From Nocardioides thalensis (GTDB taxonomy: Bacteria; Actinomycetota; Actinomycetes; Propionibacteriales; Nocardioidaceae), in contig NZ_JACCFP010000001.1 of the NCBI RefSeq assembly GCF_013410655.1, positions 1,364,001 to 1,428,000 on the forward strand: a stretch of 64,000 bases of DNA. The letters run 5' to 3'. This document shows positions 33,367 through 47,816 of this stretch, one piece after another (position 1 is the first letter of the stretch; every line of letters starts with the position of its first letter). The position numbers were made by a program, and so were the translations under genes. The notes under the pieces are model-generated. The model did no database searches and had not been told where the DNA came from. It saw only the letters and a program-made list of their open reading frames with translations.

Positions 33367-33367
33367 G

Positions 33368-33407
33368 CAGTCCAGTAGATCACGAGTGGCTATTTCACAA
33401 CAGTCCA
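33368..33407. promoter_or_regulatory. direct repeats between mocR and yczE-like genes
   Basis: CAGTCCA occurs at 33368-33374 and again at 33401-33407, 33 bp (about three helical turns) apart in the 61-bp intergenic region. Direct repeats in divergent promoters are the usual target of MocR dimers, so this is a candidate operator. Confidence 0.5.
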
Positions 33408-33427
33408 ATCGGGATGATCCTTGGAGG

Positions 33428-34099
33428 GTGAGCACCACCGTCCCCACGACCGCCCCCGTCCTCGCCGACCTCGGCCCGATCGCCCAGCTGCGCGCCGGCC
33501 GCCTCGGCCGCCGTCTCCCGCAGCTCGTCATCGGCCTCTGGCTGTACGGCGTGAGCCTCGCGCTGATGTTCCGCGGCGACCTGGGCCTGGCCCCGTGGGA
33601 CGTGCTTCACTCCGGCTTCATCCAGCATGTGCCGATCACGCTCGGTCAGGCCGTCGTGCTGATGAGCTTCGCGGTGCTCGTGGCGTGGATCCCGCTGCGC
33701 GAGGTGCCGGGCATCGGCACCGTCGCCAACGCGCTGCTGGTCGGCATCTCGGTCGACGCCACGCTGTGGCTGCTCGGGCCGGTCGACGGGCTCGTCGGCC
33801 GGGTCGCGCTCATGGTCGGGGGCGTCGTGCTGTGCGCCCTGGCGACCGCCGTCTACATCGGCGCCCAGCTCGGCCGCGGGCCGCGTGACGGGCTGATGAC
33901 CGGCCTGCACCGCCGTACCGGGCTGTCCATCCGGCTGGTGCGCACCGCGCTCGAGGTCACCGTCGTCGCGGTCGGCCTGGTCCTGGGCGGCGCGATCGGC
34001 ATCGGCACGGTGGTGTTCGCGCTGGCGATCGGACCGCTGACCCAGCTGATGCTCCCGTGGTTTCTTGTGGACCTGGAAGACCGGCACATTTCAGGGTGA
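33428..34099 (+). CDS. YczE/YyaS-family membrane protein
   Basis: A 223-residue integral membrane protein with five or six transmembrane segments. The sequence LRAGRLGRRLPQLVIGLWLYGVSLALMFRGDLGLAPWDVLHSG and the late AQLGRGPRDGLMTGLHRRTG are family signatures of YczE. The biochemical role is unknown; homologues are frequently beside MocR-type regulators, as here. GTG 33428 follows a tight ggagg site. It is transcribed away from the mocR gene and ends 43 bp before the TelA-family gene. Confidence 0.87.
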   Translation: MSTTVPTTAPVLADLGPIAQLRAGRLGRRLPQLVIGLWLYGVSLALMFRGDLGLAPWDVLHSGFIQHVPITLGQAVVLMSFAVLVAWIPLREVPGIGTVANALLVGISVDATLWLLGPVDGLVGRVALMVGGVVLCALATAVYIGAQLGRGPRDGLMTGLHRRTGLSIRLVRTALEVTVVAVGLVLGGAIGIGTVVFALAIGPLTQLMLPWFLVDLEDRHISG

Positions 34100-34142: not shown

Positions 34143-35369
34143 ATGACCACCGATGGTTCCGCAGCCGCGCCCGAACCGAGCCCGCTCGCTCCGCCCGAGC
34201 CGGTCCTCACGCTCACCGCCCCCGAGGCGCCCGCCGTCGTCATCGAGACGCAGGCCCCCAAGATGGCGCCCCAGGTCGCGCCCGAGATGGTGCCCGAGCT
34301 CGACGCGAAGGTCGACAACTTCCTGACCGCCCTCAGCACGCAGAAGGTCGGCAGCCCGGAGTTCGCCAAGCAGGCCGAGAACGTCCGCACCATGGGCGAC
34401 AACGACATCCGCAAGGCGGCCGAGACGTCCAACCGGATGCTCGACAAGCCGGTGACCGCGCTCAAGGAGGGCGGCATCGCGCAGGGCTCGAAGGTCGGCA
34501 AGACGCTGCTCGACCTGCGCCGTACCGTCGAGGACCTCGACCCCGGCCAGGCCAAGGGCGCGAAGAAGTTCTGGGACATGCTCCCGTTCAACGACAAGAT
34601 CGAGGACTACTTCCGCAAGTACCAGTCGGCGCAGAGCCAGCTCAACGGCATCCTGCACAGCCTGCGCAGCGGTCAGGACGAGCTGACCAAGGACAACGTC
34701 GCGCTCAACCTCGAGAAGACCAACCTCTGGGCCACCATGGGCCGCCTCAACCAGTACGTCTACGTCGCGGAGCAGCTCGACGCGAAGCTGTCGGCGAAGA
34801 TCGCCGAGCTCGAGCTCAGCGACCCCGAGGCCGCGAAGACGATGTCGCAGGACGTGCTGTTCTACGTCCGCCAGAAGCACCAGGACCTGCTCACCCAGCT
34901 CGCGGTCTCGATCCAGGCCTACCTGGCGATCGACATCATCATCAAGAACAACATCGAGCTCATCAAGGGCGTCGACCGCGCCACGACCACCACGATCTCG
35001 GCGCTCCGCACGGCCGTCATCGTGGCCCAGGCCCTCGGCAACCAGAAGCTGGTGCTCGACCAGATCACCGCGCTGAACACGACGACGTCCAACATGATCC
35101 AGCGGACGTCGGAGATGCTGCGCGACAACTCCGCGGCGATCCAGGAGCAGGCCGCGTCGTCGACGATCGGCATGGAGCAGCTCCAGGCCGCGTTCAACAA
35201 CATCTACATGACGATGGACTCCATCGACGAGTTCAAGCTGAAGGCGCTCGACAACATGTCGACGACCATCGGCGTGCTCGAGTCGGAGGTCCAGAAGTCG
35301 CGTGCCTACCTCGACCGCGTGCAGAGGCACGACCAGCGCAACGCCGCCGGCACCCTGGACATCGGCTGA
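34143..35369 (+). CDS. TelA/KlaA-family (toxic anion resistance) protein
   Basis: A 408-residue soluble, mostly helical protein of the TelA family. After a Pro/Ala-rich N-terminus, conserved family segments are visible: FWDMLPFNDKIEDYFRKYQSAQSQL, LWATMGRLNQYVYVAEQLD, LAVSIQAYLAIDIIIKNN and NQKLVLDQITALNTTTSNMI. Family members are linked to tellurite and other stress resistance, but the biochemical role is poorly known and tellurite should not be assumed. TAGTCT (34130-34135) lies 7 nt before ATG 34143, so this is the promoter and first gene of a ten-gene run. Coiled-coil stretches suggest it scaffolds other proteins. Confidence 0.88.
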   Translation: MTTDGSAAAPEPSPLAPPEPVLTLTAPEAPAVVIETQAPKMAPQVAPEMVPELDAKVDNFLTALSTQKVGSPEFAKQAENVRTMGDNDIRKAAETSNRMLDKPVTALKEGGIAQGSKVGKTLLDLRRTVEDLDPGQAKGAKKFWDMLPFNDKIEDYFRKYQSAQSQLNGILHSLRSGQDELTKDNVALNLEKTNLWATMGRLNQYVYVAEQLDAKLSAKIAELELSDPEAAKTMSQDVLFYVRQKHQDLLTQLAVSIQAYLAIDIIIKNNIELIKGVDRATTTTISALRTAVIVAQALGNQKLVLDQITALNTTTSNMIQRTSEMLRDNSAAIQEQAASSTIGMEQLQAAFNNIYMTMDSIDEFKLKALDNMSTTIGVLESEVQKSRAYLDRVQRHDQRNAAGTLDIG

Positions 35370-35375
35370 TCTTCG

Positions 35376-35897
35376 GTGGGTCTGAAGTCGTGGTTCAAGC
35401 GGCTCGGTGACGACAAGGACGACGACCAGGAGTACGTCGTACCTGCGCCTCCGACGGAGCAGGACGTGCTCGCCGCGCTCAACCGAGTCAACGCGATGCT
35501 CCGCGAGGGCAACGCGCCGCCCGTCGTCGTCTCGCGCGTGGTGCGGATCGCACGCACCATCAGCCAGACGCTGCCGCGGATACGCAACCTCGGGCTCGGC
35601 AGCCAGGAGGGCTACTCGGTCGTGGCGACCGCGACGGAGTACCTCCCCGAGGCCGTGAGCTCCTACCTGCGGCTGCCGCGCGAGTGGGCCGACAGCCGGC
35701 CGATCGACGGCCACAAGACGTCGTTGGTGCTGCTCATCGAGACCCTCGACCTGCTGGGCATGACGATGGACAAGATCCTCGACGCGGCCAACCGGGCCGA
35801 TGCGCAGGCGCTGATCGCGCACAGCCGCTTCCTCGACGCCAAGTTCGGCCACCACAACGACGGTGGCCAGGAGCTCAACCTAGGGACGCCACAGTGA
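35376..35897 (+). CDS. unknown protein of the TelA-PknG locus
   Basis: A 173-residue soluble protein with no recognised domain. The start MGLKSWFKRLGDDKDDD is basic then acidic; the body is helical with VLAALNRVNAMLREG, VVVSRVVRIARTISQTLPRI and KTSLVLLIETLDLLGMTMDKIL. GTG 35376 is 6 nt after the TelA stop, and the stop overlaps the AAA+ start by 4 bp. The amphipathic helices and stable position between TelA and the ATPase suggest an adaptor. No alternative family can be offered from sequence alone. Confidence 0.75.
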   Translation: MGLKSWFKRLGDDKDDDQEYVVPAPPTEQDVLAALNRVNAMLREGNAPPVVVSRVVRIARTISQTLPRIRNLGLGSQEGYSVVATATEYLPEAVSSYLRLPREWADSRPIDGHKTSLVLLIETLDLLGMTMDKILDAANRADAQALIAHSRFLDAKFGHHNDGGQELNLGTPQ

Positions 35898-37552
35898 CGA
35901 ACTCATCCGGTACGACGCTGAGCGGCGCCCTCGACGCGCTCGTGGAAGCCGCGCGGGGCGCGGGTCTCGACGAGGCCGCGGCCCGCGCCGAGGGAGAGGC
36001 GCTCGCCGCCACCGTGGCCGAGCGGTCCAAGGGTGCGTTCGTCGACTGGTCGGAGCAGACCGGCCGGGCGACCTCGGCCGAGGAGTTCTTCCTCGCCGCC
36101 AAGCGGGGCAACCGGTTCCGCGCCGGCCCGACCCCGTCGATGGCGCAGCTCTCGCTCGAGAAGTCGCAGCATGCCCCGGCGTACGCGAAGGCGCTCGGCG
36201 AGGTCGCCCTCGCCGCCAGCATGCTGGGCCAGCCCGGACCCGACGCGGTCGGCGCCGCCACGATGGCCGCTGCTGCACAGCTGGGGGAGGGTGCCGCCGG
36301 AGGTTTCGAGGCTCGGTCGCTGGGCGACCTCGCACCTCAACCACCGGCTGGCCGCCAACCGGTGCCCGGTGTCGGCGACGAGATGCTCGACCAGGTGCGC
36401 GCGATGGGGGAGCGGGTCCAGCAACAGCTGCGCGCCCTCAACGACGCCTTGCCGACGCCGCCGGTGGTTGAGGCGGGAGGCGCGCCAGCGCCGACCCTCG
36501 AAACTTCCGGTGGCACGGACGGCGTACAGACCGCCACCCAGGAGCCCGCGGAGAAGCCGGCCGAGGAGCCGGAGCCCGAGGAGCCCGTCAAGACCGTCGA
36601 GGAGCTGCTCGCCGAGCTCGACGCGCTCACCGGCCTCGCCAACGTGAAGGCCGAGATCCACCGCCAGGCCGCGGTGCTGCGGGTCGAGGGGCTGCGCAAG
36701 AAGGCAGGTCTCGAGACGCCCACGATCACCCGCCACCTCGTCTTCAACGGCAATCCCGGCACCGGCAAGACCACCGTCGCCCGCCTGGTCGCCGGCATCT
36801 ACCGGGCGCTCGGCCTGCTGTCCAAGGGCCAGCTCGTCGAGGTCGACCGCTCCGAGCTGGTCGCCGGCTATCTCGGCCAGACCGCCCAGAAGACGGCGGA
36901 GGTCGTGAAGTCCGCCGAGGGCGGCGTTCTCTTCATCGACGAGGCCTACTCGCTCTCGGGCGACCAGTACGGCAAGGAAGCAATCGACACCCTCGTCAAG
37001 GAGATGGAGGACAAGCGCGACGACCTGGTCGTGATCGTCGCCGGCTATCCGCTCCCCATGGCGATCTTCATCTCCGAGAACCCCGGCCTCGAGAGCCGCT
37101 TCCGCACCACGATCGACTTCGCCGACTACACCGACGACGAGCTCGCCGAGATCTTCGCCGGCATGGCGAAGGGCGCCGACTACGACGCGGGGGAGGAGGT
37201 CGTCGCCCGCCTCCGCGAGATCCTCGCCGGCGTCCAGCGCGGCCCGTCCTTCGGCAACGCGCGCTTCGTGCGCAACGTGCTCGAGGCCGCGATCGGCCAC
37301 CACGCCTGGCGCCTGCGCGAGATCGCCGAGCCCACGCTCGAGCAGCTGCGCAGCCTGGAGCCGGACGACCTGGTGGTGGAGACCGACGAGGACGAGTCTG
37401 CCGAGGACGAGCCCGTCGTCACCGAGGACGGCGAGCTGGCTCCTCCTGCCGATGCGGAACCCGCCGTACCCGTCGAACCGTTCGATGAGGCAGAGACCGA
37501 CGACGCGGCCCCCACCGAGGAGGCCGACGCCGTGGCCCAGGAGGACAAGTGA
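35894..37552 (+). CDS. CbbX/CfxQ-type AAA+ ATPase
   Basis: A 552-residue protein. Residues 1-130 are a helical Ala-rich domain of unknown type, 130-235 a disordered linker, and about 236-480 a CbbX-like AAA+ module: LDALTGLANVKAEIHRQA, Walker A GNPGTGKT (286-293), pore-like SELVAGYLGQTAQKT, Walker B GVLFIDEAYSL near 345-353, sensor GYPLPMAIFISENPGLESRF and GNARFVRNV. The tail is acidic. CbbX-type proteins remodel client proteins. Two dispersed-repeat copies (36302-36345, 36473-36504) are translated within the linker. Both ends overlap neighbours by 4 bp. Confidence 0.9.
   Translation: MTNSSGTTLSGALDALVEAARGAGLDEAAARAEGEALAATVAERSKGAFVDWSEQTGRATSAEEFFLAAKRGNRFRAGPTPSMAQLSLEKSQHAPAYAKALGEVALAASMLGQPGPDAVGAATMAAAAQLGEGAAGGFEARSLGDLAPQPPAGRQPVPGVGDEMLDQVRAMGERVQQQLRALNDALPTPPVVEAGGAPAPTLETSGGTDGVQTATQEPAEKPAEEPEPEEPVKTVEELLAELDALTGLANVKAEIHRQAAVLRVEGLRKKAGLETPTITRHLVFNGNPGTGKTTVARLVAGIYRALGLLSKGQLVEVDRSELVAGYLGQTAQKTAEVVKSAEGGVLFIDEAYSLSGDQYGKEAIDTLVKEMEDKRDDLVVIVAGYPLPMAIFISENPGLESRFRTTIDFADYTDDELAEIFAGMAKGADYDAGEEVVARLREILAGVQRGPSFGNARFVRNVLEAAIGHHAWRLREIAEPTLEQLRSLEPDDLVVETDEDESAEDEPVVTEDGELAPPADAEPAVPVEPFDEAETDDAAPTEEADAVAQEDK
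36302..36345. repeat. dispersed repeat inside AAA+ gene, copy 1
   Basis: GGTTTCGAGGCTCG at the left end and CTCGCACCTCAACCACC at the right end match the dispersed repeat seen between ilvN and ilvC. Here it is read in frame as about GFEARSLGDLAPQPPA within the linker, between residues ~137 and 151. Confidence 0.75.
36473..36504. repeat. dispersed repeat inside AAA+ gene, copy 2 (opposite orientation)
   Basis: GGTGGTTGAGG at the left and CCCTCGAAAC at the right show the same repeat in the reverse direction, 128 bp from copy 1. It is read in frame as VVEAGGAPAPTLET (residues ~191-204). In this frame the repeat's TGA is avoided. Confidence 0.7.
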
Positions 37553-38862
37553 GTCAGCCCGCTCCCGCACCGGCCCCGGCCGGCGCCCCGGCTCCCGCTG
37601 CCCAGCAGCCCGCCCCCGGCACGCCCGTCGTGATCCCCGCCGCTCAGCCCGGCGGCCGCACCGTGGTCGACACCCCCGCGCTGCTCAACCGCTGGCAGCT
37701 CATCGGCGTGAGCATCGCGATCGTCTTCGGCCTGGTCTGCGCGCTGCTCCAGTTCCTCGCGTGGCAGTCGGACGGCCGCGCGGCCGACGATGCCGAGCAG
37801 CTCATCCGGATCCGCTCGGTCGAGTCGAACCTGCTCCACGCTGACGCGCTCGCCACTAACGCCTTCCTCGTCGGAGGCCTCGAGGACCCGGACCAGCGCG
37901 AGCAGTACGACACCGCGATCAACGACGTCTTCACCGACATCACCGATGCGGCGAAGGCGCAGCCGGCGGACCGCGAGGCGCTTGCAGCGCTGATCGTCGA
38001 GATCAACGACTACACCGACGCCGTCGCGCAGGCGCGGGTCAACAACCGTCAGGGCTTCCCGGTCGGCGCCGAGTACCTGAGCGGTGCCAGCGCGGCGCTG
38101 CGCGCCGAGGCAATGCCGATCCTCACGAACCTTGCCGACGCCAACACCGAACGCACCGAGGACGCGATGGGCGGGCAGCACCCGATCTGGCTGCTGCTGC
38201 TCGGGGTTCTCGCCCTGGTGGGACTGTGGTGGCTCAACCGCCAGCTTGCTCAGCACTTCCGCCGGCGCATCAACGTCGGGTTCGCGGTGGCCGCCGGCAT
38301 CGTGCTCGTGGTGACGCTCGTCGCCGTTGCCGCCGCCTACCGTGGCGACAGCCAGAACGACTCACTGTTGAGCGATGAACTCGACACCGCAACCCGCCAG
38401 GCCATCGCCCGCACAGCCGGCAACGACGCGAAGGCGCTGGAGAGCCTGCGGTTGATCAAGCGAGGGTCCGGCGAGCTGTACGAGGAGCCCTGGCGCACGG
38501 CGGCCGCAGTGGTCGTTGAGAAGGCCGTTGGCAGTACCGACGAAGAGTGGACGGCATACGCCGACTTTCACGAAGCGATCGTGAAGCTCGACGAGAGGGA
38601 CCGCTGGTTCAGCGCAGTCATCCAGGCAACCGCGCGCGACGAGGACGACAACGAGACGGCTGACACGTCGACTGCAGCGTTCGAGGCCTTTGACAACGCG
38701 TCCGAGCGGGTGGTCGACACCAACGGCACGAAGACGTCCGACGAGCTGCGGTCGGGCCGCGGGCTGGCTCTGGCTGGGTCCGCCATCACACTGCTGCTCG
38801 GCATCGTCGCCGCCGTTGCGGTTGCCCGAGGTATCGGTGCTCGCCGGAAGGAGTACGCATGA
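37549..38862 (+). CDS. glnX: GlnX-like membrane sensor protein
   Basis: A 437-residue membrane protein with a Pro/Ala-rich cytoplasmic N-terminus (1-48) and four transmembrane segments at about 51-72, 212-229, 243-264 and 405-427. The two extracytoplasmic regions (73-211 and 265-404) are helical and sensor-like. Size, topology and the position between PknG and GlnH homologues match mycobacterial GlnX, which passes the amino-acid signal of GlnH to PknG. Assignment rests mainly on topology and neighbours, since sequence similarity within the family is low. GTG 37549 overlaps the AAA+ stop. Codon use becomes less GC-biased in its second half. Confidence 0.8.
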   Translation: MSQPAPAPAPAGAPAPAAQQPAPGTPVVIPAAQPGGRTVVDTPALLNRWQLIGVSIAIVFGLVCALLQFLAWQSDGRAADDAEQLIRIRSVESNLLHADALATNAFLVGGLEDPDQREQYDTAINDVFTDITDAAKAQPADREALAALIVEINDYTDAVAQARVNNRQGFPVGAEYLSGASAALRAEAMPILTNLADANTERTEDAMGGQHPIWLLLLGVLALVGLWWLNRQLAQHFRRRINVGFAVAAGIVLVVTLVAVAAAYRGDSQNDSLLSDELDTATRQAIARTAGNDAKALESLRLIKRGSGELYEEPWRTAAAVVVEKAVGSTDEEWTAYADFHEAIVKLDERDRWFSAVIQATARDEDDNETADTSTAAFEAFDNASERVVDTNGTKTSDELRSGRGLALAGSAITLLLGIVAAVAVARGIGARRKEYA

Positions 38863-39884
38863 CGAGGATTTCGAGGCCTGTCGTAGTCCTCGGCGCCCTG
38901 GCGCTCATCTTGTCGGGTTGCGGTTATGACGAAACGCCCCTTCCCGAGGACCCGGCGCCTTCGTCAGCCGCGCCTCCGCCGCCGCTGCTGTGCGAGCGGG
39001 ACAGTGTGGAAACGGACAAGCGGTCCTACGCACCCGGCTCAGTCGACCCTGCAGACCTGGAGATCGGGGACGGGTCCGGACCCCGGACGCTCCGGGTCGG
39101 CGTCTCGGCGGACACCTATCTGATGGCCGCGGCCAACCCGGAGAAGAACAACCGGATCGAGGGTTTCGACATCGAGATCGTGACCCGGATCGCTGAGGAG
39201 ATCTTCGGCGACGACTTCAACCCGGGCCGCGACATCGAGTATCGCGTCATCACCGCCGGGCAGCGGATCCCTCTGCTGGAGGAGGGCGAGCTCGACATGG
39301 TCGTACGCAACATGACGATCAACTGCGACCGTTGGGAGCACATCGCCTTCTCGGCGGAGTACTACCACGCAACCCAGAAGGTGCTGGTCCGCGCGGATCT
39401 CGCTGAGCCAGTGGACGCCGACGGTGATGGCGTCGAAGACGAGACACAGGTGCCCGACCTCGCCGAGCTTCGGGTGTGCGCACCGACTGGTTCCACAAGC
39501 CTCGACAACGTGGCGGAAGAAGAGCCCGAGGCCGTGATCTCGCCGGCTCCCAACCACACCGGTTGCCTGGTCAAGCTTCAGAACGGCGACGTCGACGTGA
39601 TCACGGGTGATGACACCGTGCTCGCCGGACTCGCCGCTCAGGACCCCTACGCCATCGTCCCCGAGGTGCAGCCACAGCTCGGAGGCGAATACGGCGAGCC
39701 CTACGGCGTCGGCGTGAATGCGGAGAATATTGAGCTCGCTGCGTTCATCAACCAGGTCCTCGAGGACATGCGCGCCGACGGTTCGTGGCAGGCCGCGTAC
39801 AACAAGTGGCTCGCTCCCTACCTCGGTGGTCCGGACGTCAACGAGGAGGGTGCCGTCCAGCCTGAGCCCCTCTACGGGCGGTGA
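38859..39884 (+). CDS. glnH: GlnH-like amino-acid-binding lipoprotein
   Basis: A 341-residue exported lipoprotein: MTRISRPVVVLGALALILSGC ends in a lipobox (LSGC). The mature part is a family 3 solute-binding protein (LRVGVSADTYLMAAANPEKN, IEGFDIEIVTRIAEEIFG, LEEGELDMVVRNMTINCDRW, FINQVLEDMRADGSW). Mycobacterial GlnH binds aspartate/glutamate and signals through GlnX rather than feeding a transporter; no ABC permease or ATPase is encoded here, consistent with a sensor role. ATG 38859 overlaps the GlnX stop by 4 bp. Base and codon use are less GC-rich than its neighbours (for example AAT, ATT and TCA codons). Confidence 0.9.
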   Translation: MTRISRPVVVLGALALILSGCGYDETPLPEDPAPSSAAPPPPLLCERDSVETDKRSYAPGSVDPADLEIGDGSGPRTLRVGVSADTYLMAAANPEKNNRIEGFDIEIVTRIAEEIFGDDFNPGRDIEYRVITAGQRIPLLEEGELDMVVRNMTINCDRWEHIAFSAEYYHATQKVLVRADLAEPVDADGDGVEDETQVPDLAELRVCAPTGSTSLDNVAEEEPEAVISPAPNHTGCLVKLQNGDVDVITGDDTVLAGLAAQDPYAIVPEVQPQLGGEYGEPYGVGVNAENIELAAFINQVLEDMRADGSWQAAYNKWLAPYLGGPDVNEEGAVQPEPLYGR

Positions 39885-39891
39885 TCCCGGC

Positions 39892-41004
39892 TTGACCACC
39901 GCCCCCATCGCACCGGGCCGGCTCGGCGAGGCGCTCGAGCCGGCGGCGATCCAGCGCTACCTCGGCGAGCTGGACACCTGGCTGCGCGACCGTCGCGCCG
40001 AGCTCGACGACCTCGACCAGACCGCGCTCGCGGCCGGCCGGGGCAACGAGGTCGCGTCCGACATGCAGCTGGCGCTGGCGCTGTGGCAGGCGATCTCCGA
40101 CCGCTACCAGCTGGTCTTCGCCACCTGGGACGGTGGCCGGGTGATGCAGCAGGAGCGGGAGCGGATCTCCGCGCTGGTGTGGGGGCGCCTCGACGGAGCC
40201 GCGCAGATGCCCGGTGGTCTCGCGGTCTCGATGCCCGAGGCCTGCCGGCTCTGCGACGCGCTCACCGGGCAGCTCACCGCGACTCTCTCGCTCGCGCCCG
40301 GCGCGGTCGAGACGGCCGGCCGGATCCGCGACGTGCGGGCCCAGCTCGAGCGGATCCGCGACCAGGTCGGCCTCGAGCCCGCCAGCACCCGCGAGTCCGC
40401 GGCGCACCGGCTCGCCGGGCTGATGCTGCGACTCGACTCGATCGCCGACCGCGCCGAGCGCGGCGCCGACGTCGGCGGCCTGCTCGGGCCGCTCGAGGTC
40501 GACGCGACGATGTTCGAGCGCGACCTGATCGTCGGCAACGCCCGTCGCCGCGACGCGCGCAGCCAGGTGCTCTCGGCCCGCGAGCTGCGCGCCGACCTCG
40601 AGCAGCGCGAGGCCGCGCTCGAGAAGCTCGCCGCCACCTGCGTCGCCACCGTCTCGCCGGCGCCGCGGTTCGCCGTACCCGACGTCGAGGCGCTCGGTCC
40701 GGTGCCGGTGACGCCGGACGCGATCGGGCCCTACCTCGAGAAGCTCGACCGGGTCTCGCAGGCGCTGGAGTTCGCGCAGCACAAGTACGCCGACGCGCTC
40801 GCCGAGCACACCGACCTGGTCGCGCTCCTCGACTCCTACGTCGCGAAGGCGCACGCCCTGCGCATCGGCGACCACCCCGACCTCGCCGCCAGCGAGAAGG
40901 CCGCTCGCGACGTGCTCGACCGACGCCCCACGCCGATGGCGATCGCCCGGCAGATGGTGGCGACCTACCAGACCTGGCTCCAGACGGAAGGCAACAAGTC
41001 ATGA
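39892..41004 (+). CDS. unknown helical protein of the TelA-PknG locus
   Basis: A 370-residue soluble protein without a recognised domain. It is almost entirely helical (IQRYLGELDTWLRDRRAELDD, VRAQLERIRDQVGLEP, LEQREAALEKLAATC, GPYLEKLDRVSQALEFAQHKYADAL) with coiled-coil potential. TTG 39892 is the only in-frame start consistent with the conserved beginning and lies 7 nt after the GlnH stop; its stop overlaps the kinase start by 4 bp. By position it may connect GlnX/GlnH to PknG or serve as a PknG partner, but that is inference. Confidence 0.75.
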   Translation: MTTAPIAPGRLGEALEPAAIQRYLGELDTWLRDRRAELDDLDQTALAAGRGNEVASDMQLALALWQAISDRYQLVFATWDGGRVMQQERERISALVWGRLDGAAQMPGGLAVSMPEACRLCDALTGQLTATLSLAPGAVETAGRIRDVRAQLERIRDQVGLEPASTRESAAHRLAGLMLRLDSIADRAERGADVGGLLGPLEVDATMFERDLIVGNARRRDARSQVLSARELRADLEQREAALEKLAATCVATVSPAPRFAVPDVEALGPVPVTPDAIGPYLEKLDRVSQALEFAQHKYADALAEHTDLVALLDSYVAKAHALRIGDHPDLAASEKAARDVLDRRPTPMAIARQMVATYQTWLQTEGNKS

Positions 41005-43421
41005 GCAGTGGAGCTACCTGCACCCAGCCGGGCTGCACCGGCACGATCGTCGACGGCTACTGCGACACGTGCGGCATGGCCGCGCCGGAGGGCACCGCGT
41101 CGGCGAAGAGCCCCATCCCGACCGCGGCGGTCGGCACGGCCGCGACCGGGGTTTCGACAGGCTCAACCGCCGGAGGTGCCGCCCCCGTGGCAAACGGCAC
41201 CGCGTGCACGCAGCCCGGGTGCACCGGCAAGATCCTCGACGGCTACTGCGACCTGTGCGGGTCGCCCGCCGTGCCCGGCGCCAGGGTCAAGGAGGCTGCT
41301 GCCGTCGCCGAGGCGCAGCCGCTCTCCTCGGGCGAGGGCTCGGTCGCCACGTCCGCCAGCCGCGTGCAGTCGGCGGCCATCGGCTCGAAGCGGGCTCCGG
41401 GCGGCAGCGGCGCGACCCGGCGTACCCGCACCGGCTCGCAGCGGATGCGCGCGGCCCGGCTCGGCGCCGGACTCACCACGGTGCCGCCGGCCCCGCCGGT
41501 CGACGCGGCGAAGGCGATCATGGCCAATGCCCAGGTGCCGGAGGACAAGCGCAGCTGCGCCAAGTGCGGCAAGCCGGTCGGCCGGAGCATCGACGGGAAG
41601 CCCGGCCGCAGCGAGGGCTTCTGCCCCAACTGCGGCACCCAGTTCTCGTTCAGCGCCAAGCTCAAGCAGGGCGACCTCGTCGCCAACCAGTACGAGGTGG
41701 CCGGCGCGCTGGCGCACGGCGGCATGGGCTGGATCTACCTCGCGCGCGACCGCAACGTGTCCAACCGGTGGGTCGTGCTCAAGGGCCTGCTCAACTCCGT
41801 CGACCCCGATCTCCTAGCGGCCGCGATCGCGGAGCAGCAGTTCCTGGCCCAGGTCGAGCACCCGGCGATCGTCGAGATCTACAACTTCGTGACCCACGAG
41901 GGCGCCGGCTACATCGTCATGGAGTACGTCGGCGGCAAGTCGCTGAAGCAGATCCTCAAGCAGCGGATGGCCGCCAACAACGGCGCCTACGACCCGCTGC
42001 CGGTGGACCAGGCGCTCGCCTACATCCTGGAGCTGCTGCCCGCGTTCCAGTACCTGCACGACCTCGGGCTCGTCTACTGCGACTTCAAGCCCGACAACAT
42101 GATCCAGGTCGGCGACGCGATGAAGCTGATCGACCTCGGCGGCGTGCGCCGCATCGACGACCAGGACTCCGCGATCTACGGCACCGTCGGCTACCAGGCG
42201 CCCGAGGTGGCCGAGGTCGGCCCCAGCGTCGCGTCCGACATCTACACGATCGGCCGCACCCTGCTGGTGCTGACGATGGAGTTCCGCGGCTACCAAGGCA
42301 CCTACCTGCACAGCCTGCCACCGGTGGAGTCGACGCCGCTGTTCCAGCAGTACGACTCGCTCTACTGGCTGGTGCGCAAGTGCTGCGCTCCCGACCCGGC
42401 CGACCGGTTCGCCTCCGTCGACGAGCTGCGTACCCAGGTGCTCGGTGTGCTCCGCGAGGTCGTCGCTCGGCGACGTTCGGGACCGGCGACCACGTCGGCG
42501 GCGTCAGTCCTCTTCGAGCCGCTCGCGACCGCGCGTCCGATCGCGGAATGGAGCCAGCTGCCCAGGCTGCGCCCCGACACCACCGACCCGCAGCACGGCT
42601 GGCTCCAGACGATCGGCGCCGAGGACCCGGTCCAGCGGCTCAAGGACCTCTCGGCCGCGCCGGAGGACTCCGCCGAGGTGTGGCTCGCCCGCATCCAGGC
42701 GGCGCTGGAGTCCAACGACGCCACCGCCGCGAGACAGTTCGCCGCGAAGCTCCTCGCCGACGACCCCTGGGAGTGGCGGGCGCTCTGGGGTGAGGGCCTC
42801 GCCGCCGTCCAGGTCGCCGACTGGGACACCGCCAAGGCGGCGTTCAACGCGGTCTACCAGCAGGTCCCCGGCGAGCTCGCGCCCAAGCTGGCGCTGGCGT
42901 TCGCGTGCGAGCGCGGCGGTCTGCCGGAGGTCGCCGAGGGTCTCTACCAGACCTGCGCATCCACGGATGCGGCGTACGTCGCGCCCGCCGCCTTCGGGAT
43001 GGCGCGGGTGCGCGCCGACCAGGGCGACACGACCGGTGCCGTCGCCGCGCTCGACCTCGTGCCCAACACCAGCCGGGGCTACATCGAGAGTCGCCAGCAG
43101 CGGGCGGAGGTGCTGCTCGCGGGGAGCGCGCAGGACCTGACGGTGCTCGACCAGGCGATGAACACGATCGAGCGGGCGCAGCTCGACAACCCGACACGGC
43201 AGCGGTTCACCGTGCGGATCCTCAGCGAGGCGCTTCCCGTGGTCGCCTCCAACCCGCCCCGGGCCGGCGTGCACATCGGGTCGGTGCAGGCGTCGGAGGC
43301 GGGCATCCGCGACGGCATCGAGGCGGCGCTGCGCAGCCTCGCGCGCGACACCAACGACCTGAAGGAGCGCGTCGACCTGGTCAACCAGGCGAACGCCGTA
43401 CGGAACTGGAGCCTCACGTGA
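41001..43421 (+). CDS. pknG: PknG-like serine/threonine protein kinase
   Basis: An 806-residue soluble kinase. Two N-terminal zinc-ribbon repeats (CTQPGCTGTIVDGYCDTCG at 7-25 and a second at 69-87) precede a Ser/Ala/Arg linker, a rubredoxin-like domain with CAKCG/CPNCG (Cys 186, 189, 208, 211), and a kinase domain at about 231-480. Key residues: ALAHGGMGWIYLA glycine loop, Lys261 (VVLKGL), YCDFKPDN with catalytic Asp361 in place of HRD, and DLG (Asp378) for DFG, both as in PknG. A TPR-like C-domain follows. Mycobacterial PknG phosphorylates the FHA protein GarA in response to amino acids. The extra zinc ribbons distinguish this protein. Confidence 0.92.
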   Translation: MSSGATCTQPGCTGTIVDGYCDTCGMAAPEGTASAKSPIPTAAVGTAATGVSTGSTAGGAAPVANGTACTQPGCTGKILDGYCDLCGSPAVPGARVKEAAAVAEAQPLSSGEGSVATSASRVQSAAIGSKRAPGGSGATRRTRTGSQRMRAARLGAGLTTVPPAPPVDAAKAIMANAQVPEDKRSCAKCGKPVGRSIDGKPGRSEGFCPNCGTQFSFSAKLKQGDLVANQYEVAGALAHGGMGWIYLARDRNVSNRWVVLKGLLNSVDPDLLAAAIAEQQFLAQVEHPAIVEIYNFVTHEGAGYIVMEYVGGKSLKQILKQRMAANNGAYDPLPVDQALAYILELLPAFQYLHDLGLVYCDFKPDNMIQVGDAMKLIDLGGVRRIDDQDSAIYGTVGYQAPEVAEVGPSVASDIYTIGRTLLVLTMEFRGYQGTYLHSLPPVESTPLFQQYDSLYWLVRKCCAPDPADRFASVDELRTQVLGVLREVVARRRSGPATTSAASVLFEPLATARPIAEWSQLPRLRPDTTDPQHGWLQTIGAEDPVQRLKDLSAAPEDSAEVWLARIQAALESNDATAARQFAAKLLADDPWEWRALWGEGLAAVQVADWDTAKAAFNAVYQQVPGELAPKLALAFACERGGLPEVAEGLYQTCASTDAAYVAPAAFGMARVRADQGDTTGAVAALDLVPNTSRGYIESRQQRAEVLLAGSAQDLTVLDQAMNTIERAQLDNPTRQRFTVRILSEALPVVASNPPRAGVHIGSVQASEAGIRDGIEAALRSLARDTNDLKERVDLVNQANAVRNWSLT
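41150..41168. repeat. short dispersed repeat inside kinase gene
   Basis: GGTTTCGACAGGCTCAACC is a 19-bp near-palindrome (GGTT...AACC) of the kind scattered through actinobacterial genomes. It is translated as VSTGSTA between the two N-terminal zinc ribbons, at about residue 51. Confidence 0.7.
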
Positions 43422-44665
43422 CCTGTCCCTCCTGCGGCACGGCGCTGGCCGAGGGTGCCCGCTTCTGCGAGAACTGCGGTGCCCAGGTCGGCGCCGACGC
43501 GCCCGCTCCGCTGACGCCGCCCGAGCAGGTCGAGGACCACCCCCTCGGCGACGCGCCGATCAGCGCGCCCACCCGGCGGCCCCACGACGCCCTGCCCGAC
43601 CCGTTGCCCGACCCCGGTCGGCGGCCGTGCCCGAACTGCGGGGGAGAGGTCGGACCCGACCTCTACTGCATGTCCTGCGGCACCAAGGCGCCCAGCGAGC
43701 GCGACCACTTCCGGGAGAGCCCGGCGTCGTGGGTCGGCGGGGTCTGTGACAAGGGCGTCGGCAAGAGCCGCAACGAGGACGCGATGGCCCTGCTGGCCGG
43801 GCCCGAGCCCGGCTCCCGAGCCGTCCTCGTCGTGATGGACGGCGTCTCCAACTCGATCGACTCCGACGTCGCCTCGCTGGCCGGCGCGCGCGCCGCGCGC
43901 GAGGTGCTGAGGATGCCGCTGCCGTCGGGCATGGGTACGCCGGACAGCAGGTCGGCGGCCATCACGAAGGTGTTCAACGACGCCGCGGCCGCCGCCAACA
44001 CCGCGATCATCGCGGTCACCGACCCGGACTCGCCCAACCCGGCGTCCGCCACCTTCTCCGCCGCGGTGCTCGAGGGCAACCGGCTGCACTACGCCAACAT
44101 CGGAGACTCGCGCTCCTACTGGCTGCCCGACGACGCGCCGGGCGTGCAGCTCTCGGTCGACGACTCGATCGCGCAGGCGCAGATCGCCGCCGGCATGCCG
44201 CGCAAGGAGGCCGAGTCCGGTCCGCAGGCGCACGCGATCACCAAGTGGCTCGGCCGCGACGCCGAGGACATCGTGCCGATGACCGGCGCGATCGACGTCT
44301 CCGGCGACGGCTGGGTACTGGTGTGCTCCGACGGCCTGTGGAACTACGCCTCGGAACCGGGCGCGCTCAAGGACGAGATCGCCAAGGCCGGCACGAGTGA
44401 CCCGACCGCGCTCGCCGCCAAGCTGGTCGACTTCGCCAACAGCTGCGGCGGCGTCGACAACATCACTGCCGCGCTGGCGCGGGTCGGCGCGATGCCCGAG
44501 CCGGTCGAGCCGCCGCCACCGCCGGCCGCGGCCGACGTACCCCCGCCACCCCCGGCCGCGGCCGACGTACCCCCGCCGCCGCCTCCGCCGGTCGGGCAGA
44601 ATGCACCAGACACCCCGCCGACCGCGGGGCCCGCAGCAGGAGAGGGAGCGCCCACCGATGGCTGA
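43418..44665 (+). CDS. PP2C-type phosphatase with zinc ribbons
   Basis: A 415-residue soluble phosphatase. Two zinc ribbons (CPSCG...CENCG at 3-21 and CPNCG...CMSCG at 71-88) precede a PPM catalytic domain at about 105-360. Metal-binding and catalytic motifs are intact: SRNEDAM, VVMDGVSNS, YANIGDSRSYW, VLVCSDGLWNY and GGVDNITAAL. It would dephosphorylate Ser/Thr sites, most likely those made by the PknG-like kinase encoded just upstream. The C-terminus is a Pro-rich tail containing a 30-bp DNA duplication. GTG 43418 overlaps the kinase stop; its own stop overlaps the next gene by 8 bp. Confidence 0.92.
   Translation: MTCPSCGTALAEGARFCENCGAQVGADAPAPLTPPEQVEDHPLGDAPISAPTRRPHDALPDPLPDPGRRPCPNCGGEVGPDLYCMSCGTKAPSERDHFRESPASWVGGVCDKGVGKSRNEDAMALLAGPEPGSRAVLVVMDGVSNSIDSDVASLAGARAAREVLRMPLPSGMGTPDSRSAAITKVFNDAAAAANTAIIAVTDPDSPNPASATFSAAVLEGNRLHYANIGDSRSYWLPDDAPGVQLSVDDSIAQAQIAAGMPRKEAESGPQAHAITKWLGRDAEDIVPMTGAIDVSGDGWVLVCSDGLWNYASEPGALKDEIAKAGTSDPTALAAKLVDFANSCGGVDNITAALARVGAMPEPVEPPPPPAAADVPPPPPAAADVPPPPPPPVGQNAPDTPPTAGPAAGEGAPTDG
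44513..44572 (+). repeat. 30-bp tandem duplication in PP2C tail
   Basis: Two adjoining 30-bp copies (44513-44542 and 44543-44572) differ at one base and encode two copies of PPPPAAADVP-type sequence in the proline-rich C-terminus. It is an in-frame expansion of a disordered tail. Confidence 0.8.
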
Positions 44666-45941
44666 GTTCACCGCCGCCGTCTACCAGAACGAGTTCCTGC
44701 CCGACGGCGGGACGGACGTCAACGCGATCGTCACGATCACCTGCAAGGGAGCCGGCACCGCCGGCCAGAGCGGGTCCGGCGACGCGGGCGAGATCATCAT
44801 CGTCGACACGTCCGGCTCGATGGGACCGGCGACCATGGCCGCCGCCAAGGACGCCGCGCAGGCAGCCCTCGCCGAGATCGTCGACGGCACCTGGTTCGCC
44901 GTCGTCGCCGGCGCCGACCGCGCGATGCTGGCCTACCCGCCGGTGTCGAGCGGCCCCGGCATGGTGCGCATGGACACCCGGGTCCGCGAGGAGGCGTCCG
45001 CGGCGATCTCGCGCTTCGTCGGCAGCGGCGGTACGGCGATCAGCACCTGGCTCGACCTGGCGGGGCAGTTGTTCGCCTCGGTGCCCGAGGTGACCCAGCG
45101 CCACGCGCTCCTGCTCACCGATGGCGAGAACCGCGAGCGCCCCGGCAAGCTCGACGAGGCGATCCGCCGCGCGACCGGCTACTTCCAGTGCGACTGCCGC
45201 GGCGCCGGCACCGACTGGCAGGTCGCCGAGATCCGCCGCATCGCCCAGGCCCTGCTCGGCACCGTCGACATCATCCCGAGGCCCGAGCAGATGCGTGCGC
45301 AGTTCCAGGAGATCATGCGCAACGCGATGTCGCGCGGGGTCGCGGACGCGTCGCTCCGGGTCTGGACGCCGCAGGGCGCGCAGGTCCTGTTCGTGCGCCA
45401 GGTGGCGCCGACGCTCGAGGACCTCACCGACCGCCGGGTCGCGGTCAACCCGCTCACGGGCGACTATCCGACGGGTGCGTGGGCCGACGAGTCGCGCGAC
45501 TACCACGTGGCGATCCGGGTGGCCGCCAAGGCGATCGGGCAGGAGCAGCTCGCCGCACGGGTGCAGCTCGCCCTCGGCAACGACGTCGTCACGCAGGGCC
45601 TGGTCAAGGCGACCTGGTCCAACAACTCCGAGCTGACCGCGAAGATCGACCAGCAAGTCGCCCACTACACAGGGCAGACCGAGCTCGCGGCCGCGATCCA
45701 GGAGGGGCTGGCGGCGAAGGCCGCGGGCGACGAGGCCACCGCCACGACCAAGCTCGGCCGCGCCGTACAGCTCGCCGCCGAGACGGGCAACGAGGAGGCG
45801 ACGAGCAAGCTCCGCAAGGTCGTCGAGATCGACAGCGAGGCCGAGGGCACGGTGCGGCTCAAGCGGGCCGTCGACAAGGCCGACGAGATGGCGCTCGACA
45901 CCGCCTCGACCAAGACCACTCGCGTCCGTAAGGAAAACTAG
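44658..45941 (+). CDS. von Willebrand factor A domain protein
   Basis: A 427-residue soluble protein. The N-terminal ~230 residues are a vWA domain with an intact metal-ion-dependent adhesion site: DTSGSM (Asp50, Ser52, Ser54), the GGTAISTW threonine and LLTDGENRERPG. A beta-rich middle (ADASLRVWTPQGAQVLFVRQVAP) and a helical C-terminus with AAIQEGLAAKAAGDEATATTKLGRAVQLA, resembling TPR or repeat helices, follow. Cytoplasmic vWA proteins usually mediate Mg-dependent protein contacts with AAA+ ATPases, here possibly the CbbX-like protein. ATG 44658 has a strong aggagaggga ribosome site and overlaps the phosphatase stop. Confidence 0.9.
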   Translation: MAEFTAAVYQNEFLPDGGTDVNAIVTITCKGAGTAGQSGSGDAGEIIIVDTSGSMGPATMAAAKDAAQAALAEIVDGTWFAVVAGADRAMLAYPPVSSGPGMVRMDTRVREEASAAISRFVGSGGTAISTWLDLAGQLFASVPEVTQRHALLLTDGENRERPGKLDEAIRRATGYFQCDCRGAGTDWQVAEIRRIAQALLGTVDIIPRPEQMRAQFQEIMRNAMSRGVADASLRVWTPQGAQVLFVRQVAPTLEDLTDRRVAVNPLTGDYPTGAWADESRDYHVAIRVAAKAIGQEQLAARVQLALGNDVVTQGLVKATWSNNSELTAKIDQQVAHYTGQTELAAAIQEGLAAKAAGDEATATTKLGRAVQLAAETGNEEATSKLRKVVEIDSEAEGTVRLKRAVDKADEMALDTASTKTTRVRKEN

Positions 45942-45946
45942 GTCTC

Positions 45947-46735
45947 GTGACCAGCACCTGTCCCTCGGGCCACCAGTCCGCCTCCGACGACTACTGCGAC
46001 GTCTGCGGGCTGCCCATCCCTGCCGGTGGCGGGGGACAGCCGGCCGCGCCCGACGCGCCGCCGCCGGCGCCGGACCCGGCGACCGCGCCGGCGCCGGACA
46101 CGTCGGAGTGCCCGAACTGCCAGGCGGCCAACCCGGCCAACGCGCTGTTCTGCGAGGCGTGCGGCTACGACTTCACCACGGGCACGATGCCGCGCCCGAT
46201 CGAGCCGTCGTCGCTCGACATCGGCCTGCCCCCGCCGGTGACGACGCCGTCCGCCGGCACCGACGACCCGCCCACGGCTGAGGCCGCCGCGGCTCCTGAC
46301 GAGCCGGCCACGCCCGTCGCGCCGCCGCTGGAGGACTCGTGGGTGGCCGAGGTCTGGATCGACCCCGACTGGTACGCCGACCAGGACAGCGACGACCCGC
46401 TCCCGTCTGCCGGCGTGCCGACGGTCGTGCCGCTGAAGACGAAGTCGATCCTCGTCGGGCGTACGTCGCGCAGCCGCAACATCCACCCCGACATCGACCT
46501 GGCGACCGACAGCGGCATCAGCCGCCGCCACTGCCAGTTCACGACCGACGGCAAGCGCTGGTGGGTCGAGGACCTCGGCTCGTCCAACGGCACGTACGTC
46601 GGCGGCGCCACCGGCGCGCTGCCCCAGCAGCCGGTCCCGCCGGGGGAGAAGCGCGAGATCGCCCCCGACGACAAGGTCTACCTCGGTGCCTGGACGCGGA
46701 TCGTGCTGCGCCGCGCCACGCCTGGCGAGGTCTGA
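45947..46735 (+). CDS. FHA-domain protein with zinc ribbons
   Basis: A 262-residue soluble protein. Two zinc ribbons (CPSGHQSASDDYCDVCG at 5-21, and CPNC...CEAC at 55-72) precede a Pro/Ala linker and a C-terminal FHA domain at about 155-255 with ILVGRTSRS, SGISRRHCQF and DLGSSNGTYVGG, which are the phosphothreonine-binding residues. It is the expected reader of phosphorylation by the PknG-like kinase and is analogous to GarA. The N-terminal ETT-type phosphosite of GarA is not seen, so regulation may differ. GTG 45947 is 5 nt after the vWA stop with an aaggaaa site. Confidence 0.9.
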   Translation: MTSTCPSGHQSASDDYCDVCGLPIPAGGGGQPAAPDAPPPAPDPATAPAPDTSECPNCQAANPANALFCEACGYDFTTGTMPRPIEPSSLDIGLPPPVTTPSAGTDDPPTAEAAAAPDEPATPVAPPLEDSWVAEVWIDPDWYADQDSDDPLPSAGVPTVVPLKTKSILVGRTSRSRNIHPDIDLATDSGISRRHCQFTTDGKRWWVEDLGSSNGTYVGGATGALPQQPVPPGEKREIAPDDKVYLGAWTRIVLRRATPGEV

Positions 46736-46750: not shown

Positions 46751-47074
46751 TCACTCCTCGCCCAGCCGCACGACGAGCAGCCCTGAGATCAGGAGGGCGA
46801 GGCCCATCAACCGCGCCGCGGAGAGCCGATCGCCGCTCCAGAGGACACCGACCCCGACCGCGCCGATGGCGCCGATCCCGGTGAAGGCGCAGTAGGCCAG
46901 TCCCACGGGGAGGCCCTCCATGGCCCGGCTGAGGAGGAACACCGCACTGACGCCGAGCACGAAGCAGACGATCGTCGGAACGGGCCTGGTGAAACCGTCG
47001 GTCGGCTTGATGCTCTGGGTCCAGGCCACCTCCACCAATCCGGCGGCGAGGAGCCACCACCAAGAGCTGTGCAT
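46751..47074 (-). CDS. SMR-family (QacE/SugE-like) efflux protein
   Basis: A 107-residue membrane protein with four transmembrane helices. WWWLLAAGLVEVAWTQSIKPTDGFT carries the membrane-embedded glutamate of small multidrug resistance proteins, and GLAYCAFTGIGAIGAVGVGV is the conserved helix 3. SMR proteins function as dimers exporting quaternary ammonium or guanidinium-type cations. Its ATG shares one base with the azoreductase TGA, so the two are co-transcribed under the palindrome at 47772-47816. It is convergent with the FHA gene, 15 bp away. Confidence 0.9.
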   Translation of the reverse strand: MHSSWWWLLAAGLVEVAWTQSIKPTDGFTRPVPTIVCFVLGVSAVFLLSRAMEGLPVGLAYCAFTGIGAIGAVGVGVLWSGDRLSAARLMGLALLISGLLVVRLGEE

Positions 47075-47736
47075 CACCGGACCTCCTCGAGCGGGATGAC
47101 CTGCCGTGCCGCCGCCCGCGCGGACGCGATCGCGTCCGCGAGCGAGGCCTCGTGGGCTTCCTGGAGATGGGCCAGCGCAGGGTCGACCCTCGCGTTGTTG
47201 AGCTCGGCGACGACGGAGATCGGCGGTTCCACGGAGTAGTGACCCACGATGAAGTCCGAGAGGTACCGGACGTGGTGCTCCATCGGTGCCCGCGGCCGGC
47301 CGGGTGTGTAGCTGCCCCCCTGCGCCGCTGCCACGACGAACCGCCGGTGCCCCAGGTTCATCCGCGGGAAGGTGACCTGGTCGATCCACGCCTTGAGCGA
47401 GGACGGGATGCCGAAGTTGTACATCGGGGCCGAGATGAGCACGACGTCGGCCGCGACCAGCTCGGCGAGCAGGGGCTCGACGACGGCCCAGGCGGCCCTC
47501 TCCTCCGTGGTGCGTGCGCCGCGATGCAGCTCGGAGAGGTCGGAGATCTGGTCCCGGAGCAGGTTGTCGCAGATCCGGGTCCATCCCTCGGTGATGTGCG
47601 GCACCGGCTGCGCCGCGAGATCGCGGTACGTGACCGAGGCCCCCGGGTCTGTCCGGAAGACCGAGGCGAACTCCTGCCCCAGGCGACGGGAGACGGAATC
47701 CCTGCGAGCACTCGAGTCGAGATGAAGTAGGTGCAC
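47074..47736 (-). CDS. FMN-dependent NADH:azo/quinone reductase
   Basis: A 220-residue flavodoxin-like reductase of the AzoR family. VHLLHLDSSARRDSVSRRLGQEF begins the fold and binds the FMN phosphate; SAPMYNFGIPSSLKAWIDQVTF is the FMN-contact signature of azoreductases. Such enzymes reduce quinones and azo compounds with NADH. GTG 47736 was preferred over ATG 47802 because it begins the conserved strand and follows AAGGAGCTTGATC; the longer version reads through the operator palindrome. It is coupled to the SMR efflux gene. Confidence 0.88.
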   Translation of the reverse strand: MHLLHLDSSARRDSVSRRLGQEFASVFRTDPGASVTYRDLAAQPVPHITEGWTRICDNLLRDQISDLSELHRGARTTEERAAWAVVEPLLAELVAADVVLISAPMYNFGIPSSLKAWIDQVTFPRMNLGHRRFVVAAAQGGSYTPGRPRAPMEHHVRYLSDFIVGHYSVEPPISVVAELNNARVDPALAHLQEAHEASLADAIASARAAARQVIPLEEVR

Positions 47737-47771
47737 GATCAAGCTCCTTTGGCATGGGTGGTGGGTGGTGA

Positions 47772-47816
47772 GTTCGGAGGAATAAGTGGACGCACCGTCC
47801 ACTTATTCCTCCGAAC
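47772..47816. promoter_or_regulatory. 45-bp perfect palindrome between azoR-like and LLM genes
   Basis: GTTCGGAGGAATAAGTGGACG (21 nt; first part gttcggaggaataa, then gtggacg) is repeated exactly in reverse complement after a 3-bp centre (cac, 47793-47795). The inner part TGGACGcacCGTCCA resembles TetR-family operators. It sits between the two divergent transcription units and close to both starts, so a repressor here would control both. The TetR gene at 48856 is the obvious candidate. Confidence 0.85.

Follow-up and report, generated by a model that had tools for sequence, protein, structure and literature searches.

A ten-gene PknG locus of Nocardioides thalensis with a predicted ArnAB-like phospho-switch and its own phosphatase and reader

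What does the kinase PknG act on when its gene lies within a run far longer than the PknG-GlnX-GlnH trio? The question is raised by a 64,000 bp stretch of the Nocardioides thalensis genome (assembly GCF_013410655.1, contig NZ_JACCFP010000001.1, positions 1,364,001 to 1,428,000; referred to here as the window), in which ten consecutive open reading frames on the + strand at window positions 34143-46735 encode, in order, a TelA-family protein, a small orphan protein (o173), an AAA ATPase, a GlnX-family transducer, a GlnH-like lipoprotein, a second orphan protein, PknG, a PP2C phosphatase, a vWA protein and a zinc-ribbon FHA protein (Table 1). The nine junctions are, in order, +6, -4, -4, -4, +7, -4, -4, -8 and +5 bp, and these coordinates confirm the initial annotation of ten genes reading in one direction with overlaps of 4-8 bp or gaps of at most 7 bp. 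The ten genes are likely a single operon and transcription unit; a promoter scan of the locus finds no site, and terminator-like sites are no more common than chance. We propose, with a probability of about 0.4, that GlnH, GlnX and PknG write phosphates on a conserved tail of the vWA protein, that the FHA protein reads them and PP2C erases them, and that a Ter-like arm of TelA and the AAA ATPase is the output.

The products of the last two genes resemble a known pair, ArnB and ArnA of Sulfolobus. The vWA protein aligns along residues 3-425 with a Catenulispora protein of determined structure (caci_2163, PDB 4fx5), its Ser/Thr tail included, and passages of two ArnB papers (PMC6509490, PMC12852372) name 4FX5 as an ArnB-type three-domain fold, the build of the ArnB paralogue vWA2. 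By this alignment the window protein may have the ArnB fold of vWA domain, beta-sandwich and helical bundle. The DxSxS motif of its metal-ion-dependent adhesion site is present in 68 of 70 relatives. The best PDB sequence matches of the FHA product are two ArnA entries, 8s05 (E 6.6e-9, 38.8 bits) and 5a8i (3.5e-8, 36.4 bits), with GarA third at 31.8 bits, and its phosphothreonine-pocket residues R172, S192, R193 and N214 are invariant in all 66 rows. According to passages of the same two papers, ArnC phosphorylates ArnB in its C-terminal region, the phosphorylated protein is a tight ligand of the ArnA FHA domain, and the state of the pair tracks nutrient supply; binding of the phosphorylated vWA protein by the FHA protein is predicted here by analogy. 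Both systems have a zinc-ribbon FHA reader, a vWA partner whose C-terminal region contains Thr, a kinase, a phosphatase and a link to nutrients, but the present locus is bacterial, carries kinase, PP2C and sensor within the run and has no link to motility, and its tail is short and conserved whereas the ArnB sites lie inside the helical bundle. The word PknG is absent from the main texts of both ArnB papers. That the two proteins form a pair is favoured by a Rathayibacter locus (L070; loci, genomes and families carry our own L, G and f labels) in which the vWA and FHA genes have moved together by about 7 kb.

The C-terminal Ser/Thr motif of the vWA protein is present in all 68 complete relatives from the ten-gene group, a count that leaves out L013 (a run of N) and L033 (a contig end) and keeps loci cut by contig ends as well as L112, L113 and L150; residues T415, S417, T418, T420 and R422 are invariant in 69 rows. 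A related locus form of about seven genes, described below, allows the tail to be compared with the presence of PP2C. Among 21 vWA proteins of this type, a relaxed form of the motif is found in 15 of 15 encoded with PP2C and in none of 6 encoded without. As the pattern had already been seen in this first set, the motif definition was fixed before a second set of 49 further loci was scored; 20 of these have no vWA match of at least 40 bits and were excluded from the motif table, and in the remaining 29 the motif accompanies PP2C in 18 of 19 cases and is missing from all 10 PP2C-less loci. Over both sets the motif is present in 33 of 34 proteins with PP2C and in 0 of 16 without. In a quick tree calculated from 65 vWA proteins with the tail excluded, and omitting L141 and vWA matches below 75 bits, PP2C presence changes three times and the motif four times. 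By eye, the vWA proteins of seven PP2C-less, PknG-linked loci (L212-L217, L246) have no Ser/Thr tail and end in a zinc-ribbon-like Cys motif.

GlnX has four hydrophobic segments and falls somewhat short of the NCBI family cut-off of 250 bits, and GlnH has a lipobox-like signal, its nearest PDB entry being M. tuberculosis GlnH. Of the pocket residues whose roles are set out in passages of PMC6069109, the Asp-pocket residues R147, R169 and D250 are invariant in 60 ten-gene rows, while W232, the mycobacterial pocket tryptophan, is replaced by H in 52 of the 60 and T162 by N in 34. Of 25 seven-gene rows, all have R147, 22 have R169 and 19 have D250. The ligand is likely an amino acid and may be Asp or Glu. 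PknG has its rubredoxin, kinase and TPR domains; the lysine motif and DxG are each found in 82 of 82 relatives, and a relaxed HxD-loop pattern in 69 of 82. The PP2C catalytic motifs are found in 61-66 of 66 relatives. The set of writer, eraser and reader described in the initial annotation stands as to a co-encoded kinase, PP2C and phospho-reader, although the reader is not of the GarA type (see below), and its proposal of a protein complex under the control of a signal is reasonable.

The arrangement is conserved well beyond the genus. A PknG scan of genome contigs yields 387 relatives, of which the best 80 were fetched and examined; because of this choice the ten-gene counts are biased to close relatives, and a class-wide sample gives the broader view. 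With profiles of the ten proteins, whichever of the genes are present follow one order in all 80 fetched loci. Order kept in 80 of 80 relatives places the arrangement beyond chance, and the gene-neighbourhood check proposed with the initial annotation thus comes out strongly in its favour. Full flanks are available for 56 loci: 42 carry the complete set of ten (including L070, with its displaced pair, and L013), 11 lack GlnH alone, two have no vWA and FHA genes within reach, and one, from a metagenome-assembled genome with full flanks and no N runs (L027), has GlnX-GlnH-PknG-PP2C alone. Complete loci are found in Nocardioides, Pimelobacter (the ten-gene locus of P. (Nocardioides) simplex is L011), Pedococcus, Cellulomonas, Oerskovia, Agreia, Rathayibacter and others. 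The GlnH-less loci, of Propionibacteriaceae type (L036, L038, L042, L043, L046, L047, L057, L067, L072, L075, L079), come from Micropruina, Propionicimonas, Propionibacteriaceae and one actinomycete. In these GlnX mostly lies about 10 bp or less from orphan 2 (67 bp in L042, 64 bp in L057), and the loss of this one gene with GlnX kept beside orphan 2 raises the question of what signal GlnX receives there.

The class-wide sample of 296 genomes contains PknG_TPR in 110 (108 above cut-off), o173 in 45 and VWA_3_C in 76, and in 40 further regions compared for locus form three tiers are seen, of three, about seven and ten genes. In family f5, read as Mycobacteriaceae from its gene content, six of seven loci contain the GlnX-GlnH-PknG trio and the seventh a lone PknG. 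The form of about seven genes (GlnX, GlnH, orphan 2, PknG, PP2C, vWA and FHA, sometimes rearranged) is found in families f16, f17 and f18, the last read in the same way as Streptomycetaceae, and the ten-gene form in f1, f2 and f12. Second PknG copies in f16, f17 and f18 are often incomplete. We also note PP2C-less second PknG loci in f17 (L132, L136, L138, L139, L141, L142 and others), often with divergent GlnX-GlnH genes on the opposite strand.

Within the genus, inheritance is all or none. PknG scores above cut-off in 14 of 40 congeners and TelA is present in 15, namely all 14 PknG holders and one PknG-less genome (G321); in each of the 14 the two genes share a contig at a spacing of 7.7-8.5 kb (Fisher p 6e-10 for co-occurrence in the 40 congeners, with no correction for kinship). 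Against the locus profile the TelA of G321 reaches 481 bits, versus 766 for the operon-type copy of G323, and it adjoins TerD and TerC-family genes, with a weak o173 match there. Of the 16 congeners in the class sample, PknG, o173 and VWA_3_C each occur in the same seven. GarA behaves differently: a GarA-like protein is found in all 40 congeners (E <=1e-35), none of them reaching the NCBI cut-off of 200 bits. In the genome to which the window belongs it is encoded about 0.8 Mb from the locus (G000:C1:2208028-2208417, 179.6 bits), so that the remark in the initial annotation that mycobacterial GarA is encoded elsewhere holds in this genome too. Its sequence differs from that of the FHA protein of the window, which scores 32 bits on the OdhI/GarA model against the same cut-off. 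With 32 bits versus 180 for the distant protein, the local FHA protein is not GarA, and the GarA-type role first implied for it is not supported. Because PknG is present in 14 of 40 congeners, with TelA in 14 of 14, and GarA in 40 of 40, the locus is passed on as a unit, independently of GarA.

Separate inheritance is nevertheless compatible with GarA being a PknG target where both are present. The strongest alternative is that the locus encodes an ordinary PknG-GlnX-GlnH pathway with the distant GarA as main target, in which the genes alongside have an accessory part and the FHA protein of the locus does no more than dock on phosphorylated PknG. GlnX, GlnH and PknG all match the known system, and the GarA-like protein is present in the genome with, by eye, a Thr-containing motif ahead of its FHA domain, as in the congeners. 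In Saccharopolyspora GarA is phosphorylated and is described, in passages of PMC12321487, as under the control of PknB as well as PknG; parts of PMC8546545 report that FHA substrates dock on the autophosphorylated N-terminus of PknG. We consider this alternative unlikely, given that all 40 congeners have GarA and 14 of the 40 have PknG, that the Thr-containing motif of GarA persists in PknG-less genomes (by eye, from a reading of 30 of the 40 loci), that the extra genes are co-inherited with PknG as a block and that the conserved vWA tail is left unexplained. Since PknB regulates GarA too, finding GarA in PknG-less genomes is no proof that PknG leaves GarA alone, and to this extent the distribution counts against our own scheme.

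A second alternative makes the FHA protein itself the main PknG substrate, at T77/T78 just after the zinc ribbon, with PP2C as the eraser and the vWA protein as a scaffold. Both threonines are kept in 98% of the 66 rows, and the GarA/OdhI phosphorylation site likewise precedes the FHA domain (passages of PMC8546545 and PMC12321487). Three f16 loci (L218, L221, L223) have lost the vWA gene and keep PP2C and FHA, and because the vWA gene is absent there the FHA protein must serve another use. These residues lie at the edge of the zinc ribbon, however, and may be structural, and the vWA tail is conserved throughout the complete relatives and tracks PP2C in the sampled loci, which makes this the more improbable of the two.

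The first three genes bring in a different set of relationships. The AAA protein has Walker A and B motifs in all 63 near-full-length relatives and scores 278 bits on SpoVK, 225 on CbbX and 223 on EccA models, all below cut-off. Identification as CbbX is rejected (TIGR02880, 224.9 bits against a cut-off of 459.25), and of the original 'CbbX-type' label it can be kept that CbbX is among the comparable relatives, although SpoVK scores higher and EccA similarly. Neither orphan of the window has a Pfam or NCBI family match, and their relatives match no family consistently; both are predicted to be helical, with no assignable fold in the AlphaFold2 models. They were rightly called orphans in lacking a family, but they are not strays. 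Orphan 2 travels with PknG; many seven-gene loci have a match at the equivalent position, in most cases a weak one of about 20-45 bits. For o173 we find 1908 relatives among 7996 candidates scored; distant matches occur in 36 genomes, and in 12 inspected loci whose fetched stretches contain no PknG, TelA is the immediate neighbour in five and lies about 2 kb away in five (10 of 12). The latter are L159, L161 and L164-L166, and in L165 a protein combining solute-binding and vWA domains is encoded between TelA and the o173 relative. In Bacillus and Listeria, TelA is encoded with a small XpaC partner, and TelA disruption raises sensitivity to nisin and tellurite (passages of PMC12791056). The order of TelA followed by a small partner is the same here, with o173 in the partner's place but without an XpaC match; XpaC is not among the 10 Pfam families matched by any of 46 o173 members (E <=1).

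A second comparison is with Ter-type loci. Distant TelA/o173 relatives lie close to TerD in three loci (L168, L170, L200), the first two being among the 10 TelA-linked o173 loci just described, whereas the ten window genes include no TerD or TerC match and the vWA protein has no zinc-ribbon match. TerY-P/Ter systems co-encode TerD or TerC and have a TerY-type vWA protein with a zinc ribbon, and TerY-P triads consist of a kinase, a PP2C and a vWA protein; membership of the locus in such a system is rejected, as TerD, TerC and a zinc ribbon on the vWA protein are lacking. That a Ter-type stress or defence system recruited PknG to serve as its kinase and that amino-acid sensing came second is the least probable of the alternatives, for although kinase, PP2C, vWA and TelA are encoded together, the three TerD-linked loci exist and the Propionibacteriaceae-type loci drop GlnH and retain the rest, the ten genes lack TerD and TerC, PADLOC returns on the locus kinase-domain and AAA-domain matches plus one at E 0.09 and nothing else, and TelA looks to have been added later because a TelA-less seven-gene form exists.

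Returning to the proposed vWA-tail switch, a plausible course of events is as follows. The predicted GlnH lipoprotein and the GlnX membrane transducer would control PknG, as carried over from the known system, and PknG would phosphorylate the vWA protein at its Ser/Thr tail. The zinc-ribbon FHA protein would then bind the phosphorylated tail, as ArnA binds phosphorylated ArnB, and the co-encoded PP2C would strip the phosphates. We infer further that the state of the vWA-FHA pair, with the SpoVK/CbbX-like ATPase as engine, may set the assembly of TelA and o173, a pair that, accompanied by TerD in some genomes, may belong to an envelope-stress network; orphan 2 would be a PknG adaptor.

Several points weigh against this scheme. 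The motif was relaxed after the first set had been viewed, and one of the six PP2C-less loci in that set (L141) is in an odd frame. L224 encodes PP2C and a very divergent vWA protein without the motif, and several motif-less rows sit on long, unsure branches of the vWA tree. There are two to three independent contrasts between PP2C and the motif, all in the same direction, with a sign-test median p of 0.5; with so few contrasts the test is unable to reach significance. The tail has competitors as a conserved Ser/Thr site in FHA T77/T78 and in parts of the PknG N-terminus, and the loss of the vWA gene from L218, L221 and L223 argues against an exclusive partnership; a further locus, L249, has neither vWA nor FHA. 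The lead of ArnA over GarA, 38.8 versus 31.8 bits, is modest. As for ArnB itself, passages of PMC12852372 report that the unphosphorylated protein binds ArnA through the zinc ribbon and that no one threonine is essential. Finally, TelA, the AAA ATPase and both orphans are placed in the output because of their linkage alone.

Compared with the PknG-GlnX-GlnH-GarA/OdhI systems of Mycobacterium and Corynebacterium, as presented in passages of PMC6069109, PMC9769921 and PMC8546545, the locus has the same kinase architecture, a GlnX-family transducer and a GlnH-type lipoprotein in adjacent genes, but differs in having seven more genes in the run, with a local PP2C, a vWA protein, a non-GarA FHA protein and TelA/AAA. 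In the literature searched (titles, abstracts and passages, with few subscription journals and without figures or supplements) neither the extended run nor a PknG link to a vWA-FHA pair is described; the component families are known, and this literature yielded neither their fixed combination nor the likeness to ArnAB. The ArnA-ArnB parallel, the conserved vWA tail, the one-gene loss of GlnH and the series of three-, seven- and ten-gene forms go beyond the initial annotation. A wider and rather doubtful reading is that outside Mycobacteriaceae-type loci PknG mainly drives a bacterial ArnAB switch and not GarA, that one lineage captured the TelA/AAA arm, where extracellular amino acids would directly control envelope protection, and that the known metabolic role belongs to a reduced three-gene remnant.

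The coordinates are collected in Table 1, in which the start codon of orphan 2 (TTG at 39892) is our choice. Upstream, window positions 31915-34099 contain a - strand gene of the GntR-aminotransferase (MocR) type, divergent from a gene without a Pfam match that stops 44 bp 5' of the TelA-family gene. Downstream, genes for a small multidrug-resistance family protein and a flavodoxin-fold reductase lie on the opposite strand at 46751-47802.

Table 1. Features of the ten-gene locus, in window coordinates. Residue counts are in amino acids (aa); AF2, AlphaFold2; pLDDT, predicted local distance difference test.
Feature	Position	Strand	Evidence
TelA-family protein, 408 aa	34143..35369	+	PF05816 E 1.8e-92; leads run in 42 complete full-flank loci
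Orphan 1 (o173), 173 aa, predicted all-helical, predicted TelA partner	35376..35897	+	AF2 pLDDT 86.9
AAA ATPase, SpoVK/CbbX/EccA group, 552 aa	35894..37552	+	AAA 3e-17, AAA_lid_6 1.3e-17
GlnX-family transducer, 437 aa, four predicted membrane segments	37549..38862	+	NF058618 219.8 bits; hydropathy
GlnH-like predicted amino-acid-binding lipoprotein, 341 aa	38859..39884	+	SBP_bac_3 4.7e-25; PDB 6h2t 1.5e-44
Orphan 2 (cc370), 370 aa, predicted all-helical, directly 5' of pknG	39892..41004	+	AF2 pLDDT 91.8
PknG-type Ser/Thr kinase, rubredoxin-kinase-TPR, 806 aa	41001..43421	+	PF16918 1.1e-53, PF16919 8.1e-24, PF00069; 2pzi 3.8e-140
Zinc-ribbon PP2C phosphatase, 415 aa	43418..44665	+	PP2C_2 1.6e-7; Stp1 model 98.5 bits, cut-off 230
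ArnB-like vWA protein with VWA_3_C, 427 aa	44658..45941	+	4fx5 E 2.9e-109, residues 3-425; adhesion-site (MIDAS) motif
Ser/Thr-rich C-terminal tail of vWA protein, residues 410-427, predicted phosphosite	45885..45938	+	68/68 complete relatives
ArnA-like zinc-ribbon FHA protein, 262 aa	45947..46735	+	closest PDB entries ArnA 8s05, 5a8i

The PknG papers examined, in the parts consulted, frame the kinase through GarA/OdhI. The comparisons made here suggest that in several actinobacterial families PknG is part of a larger phospho-switch, which is inherited as a block and has an eraser and a reader of its own, and that this switch resembles an archaeal nutrient switch, with a TelA-type output in one lineage. 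The vWA tail provides a concrete candidate substrate site, and species that have GarA without PknG provide a natural control for PknG roles beyond GarA.

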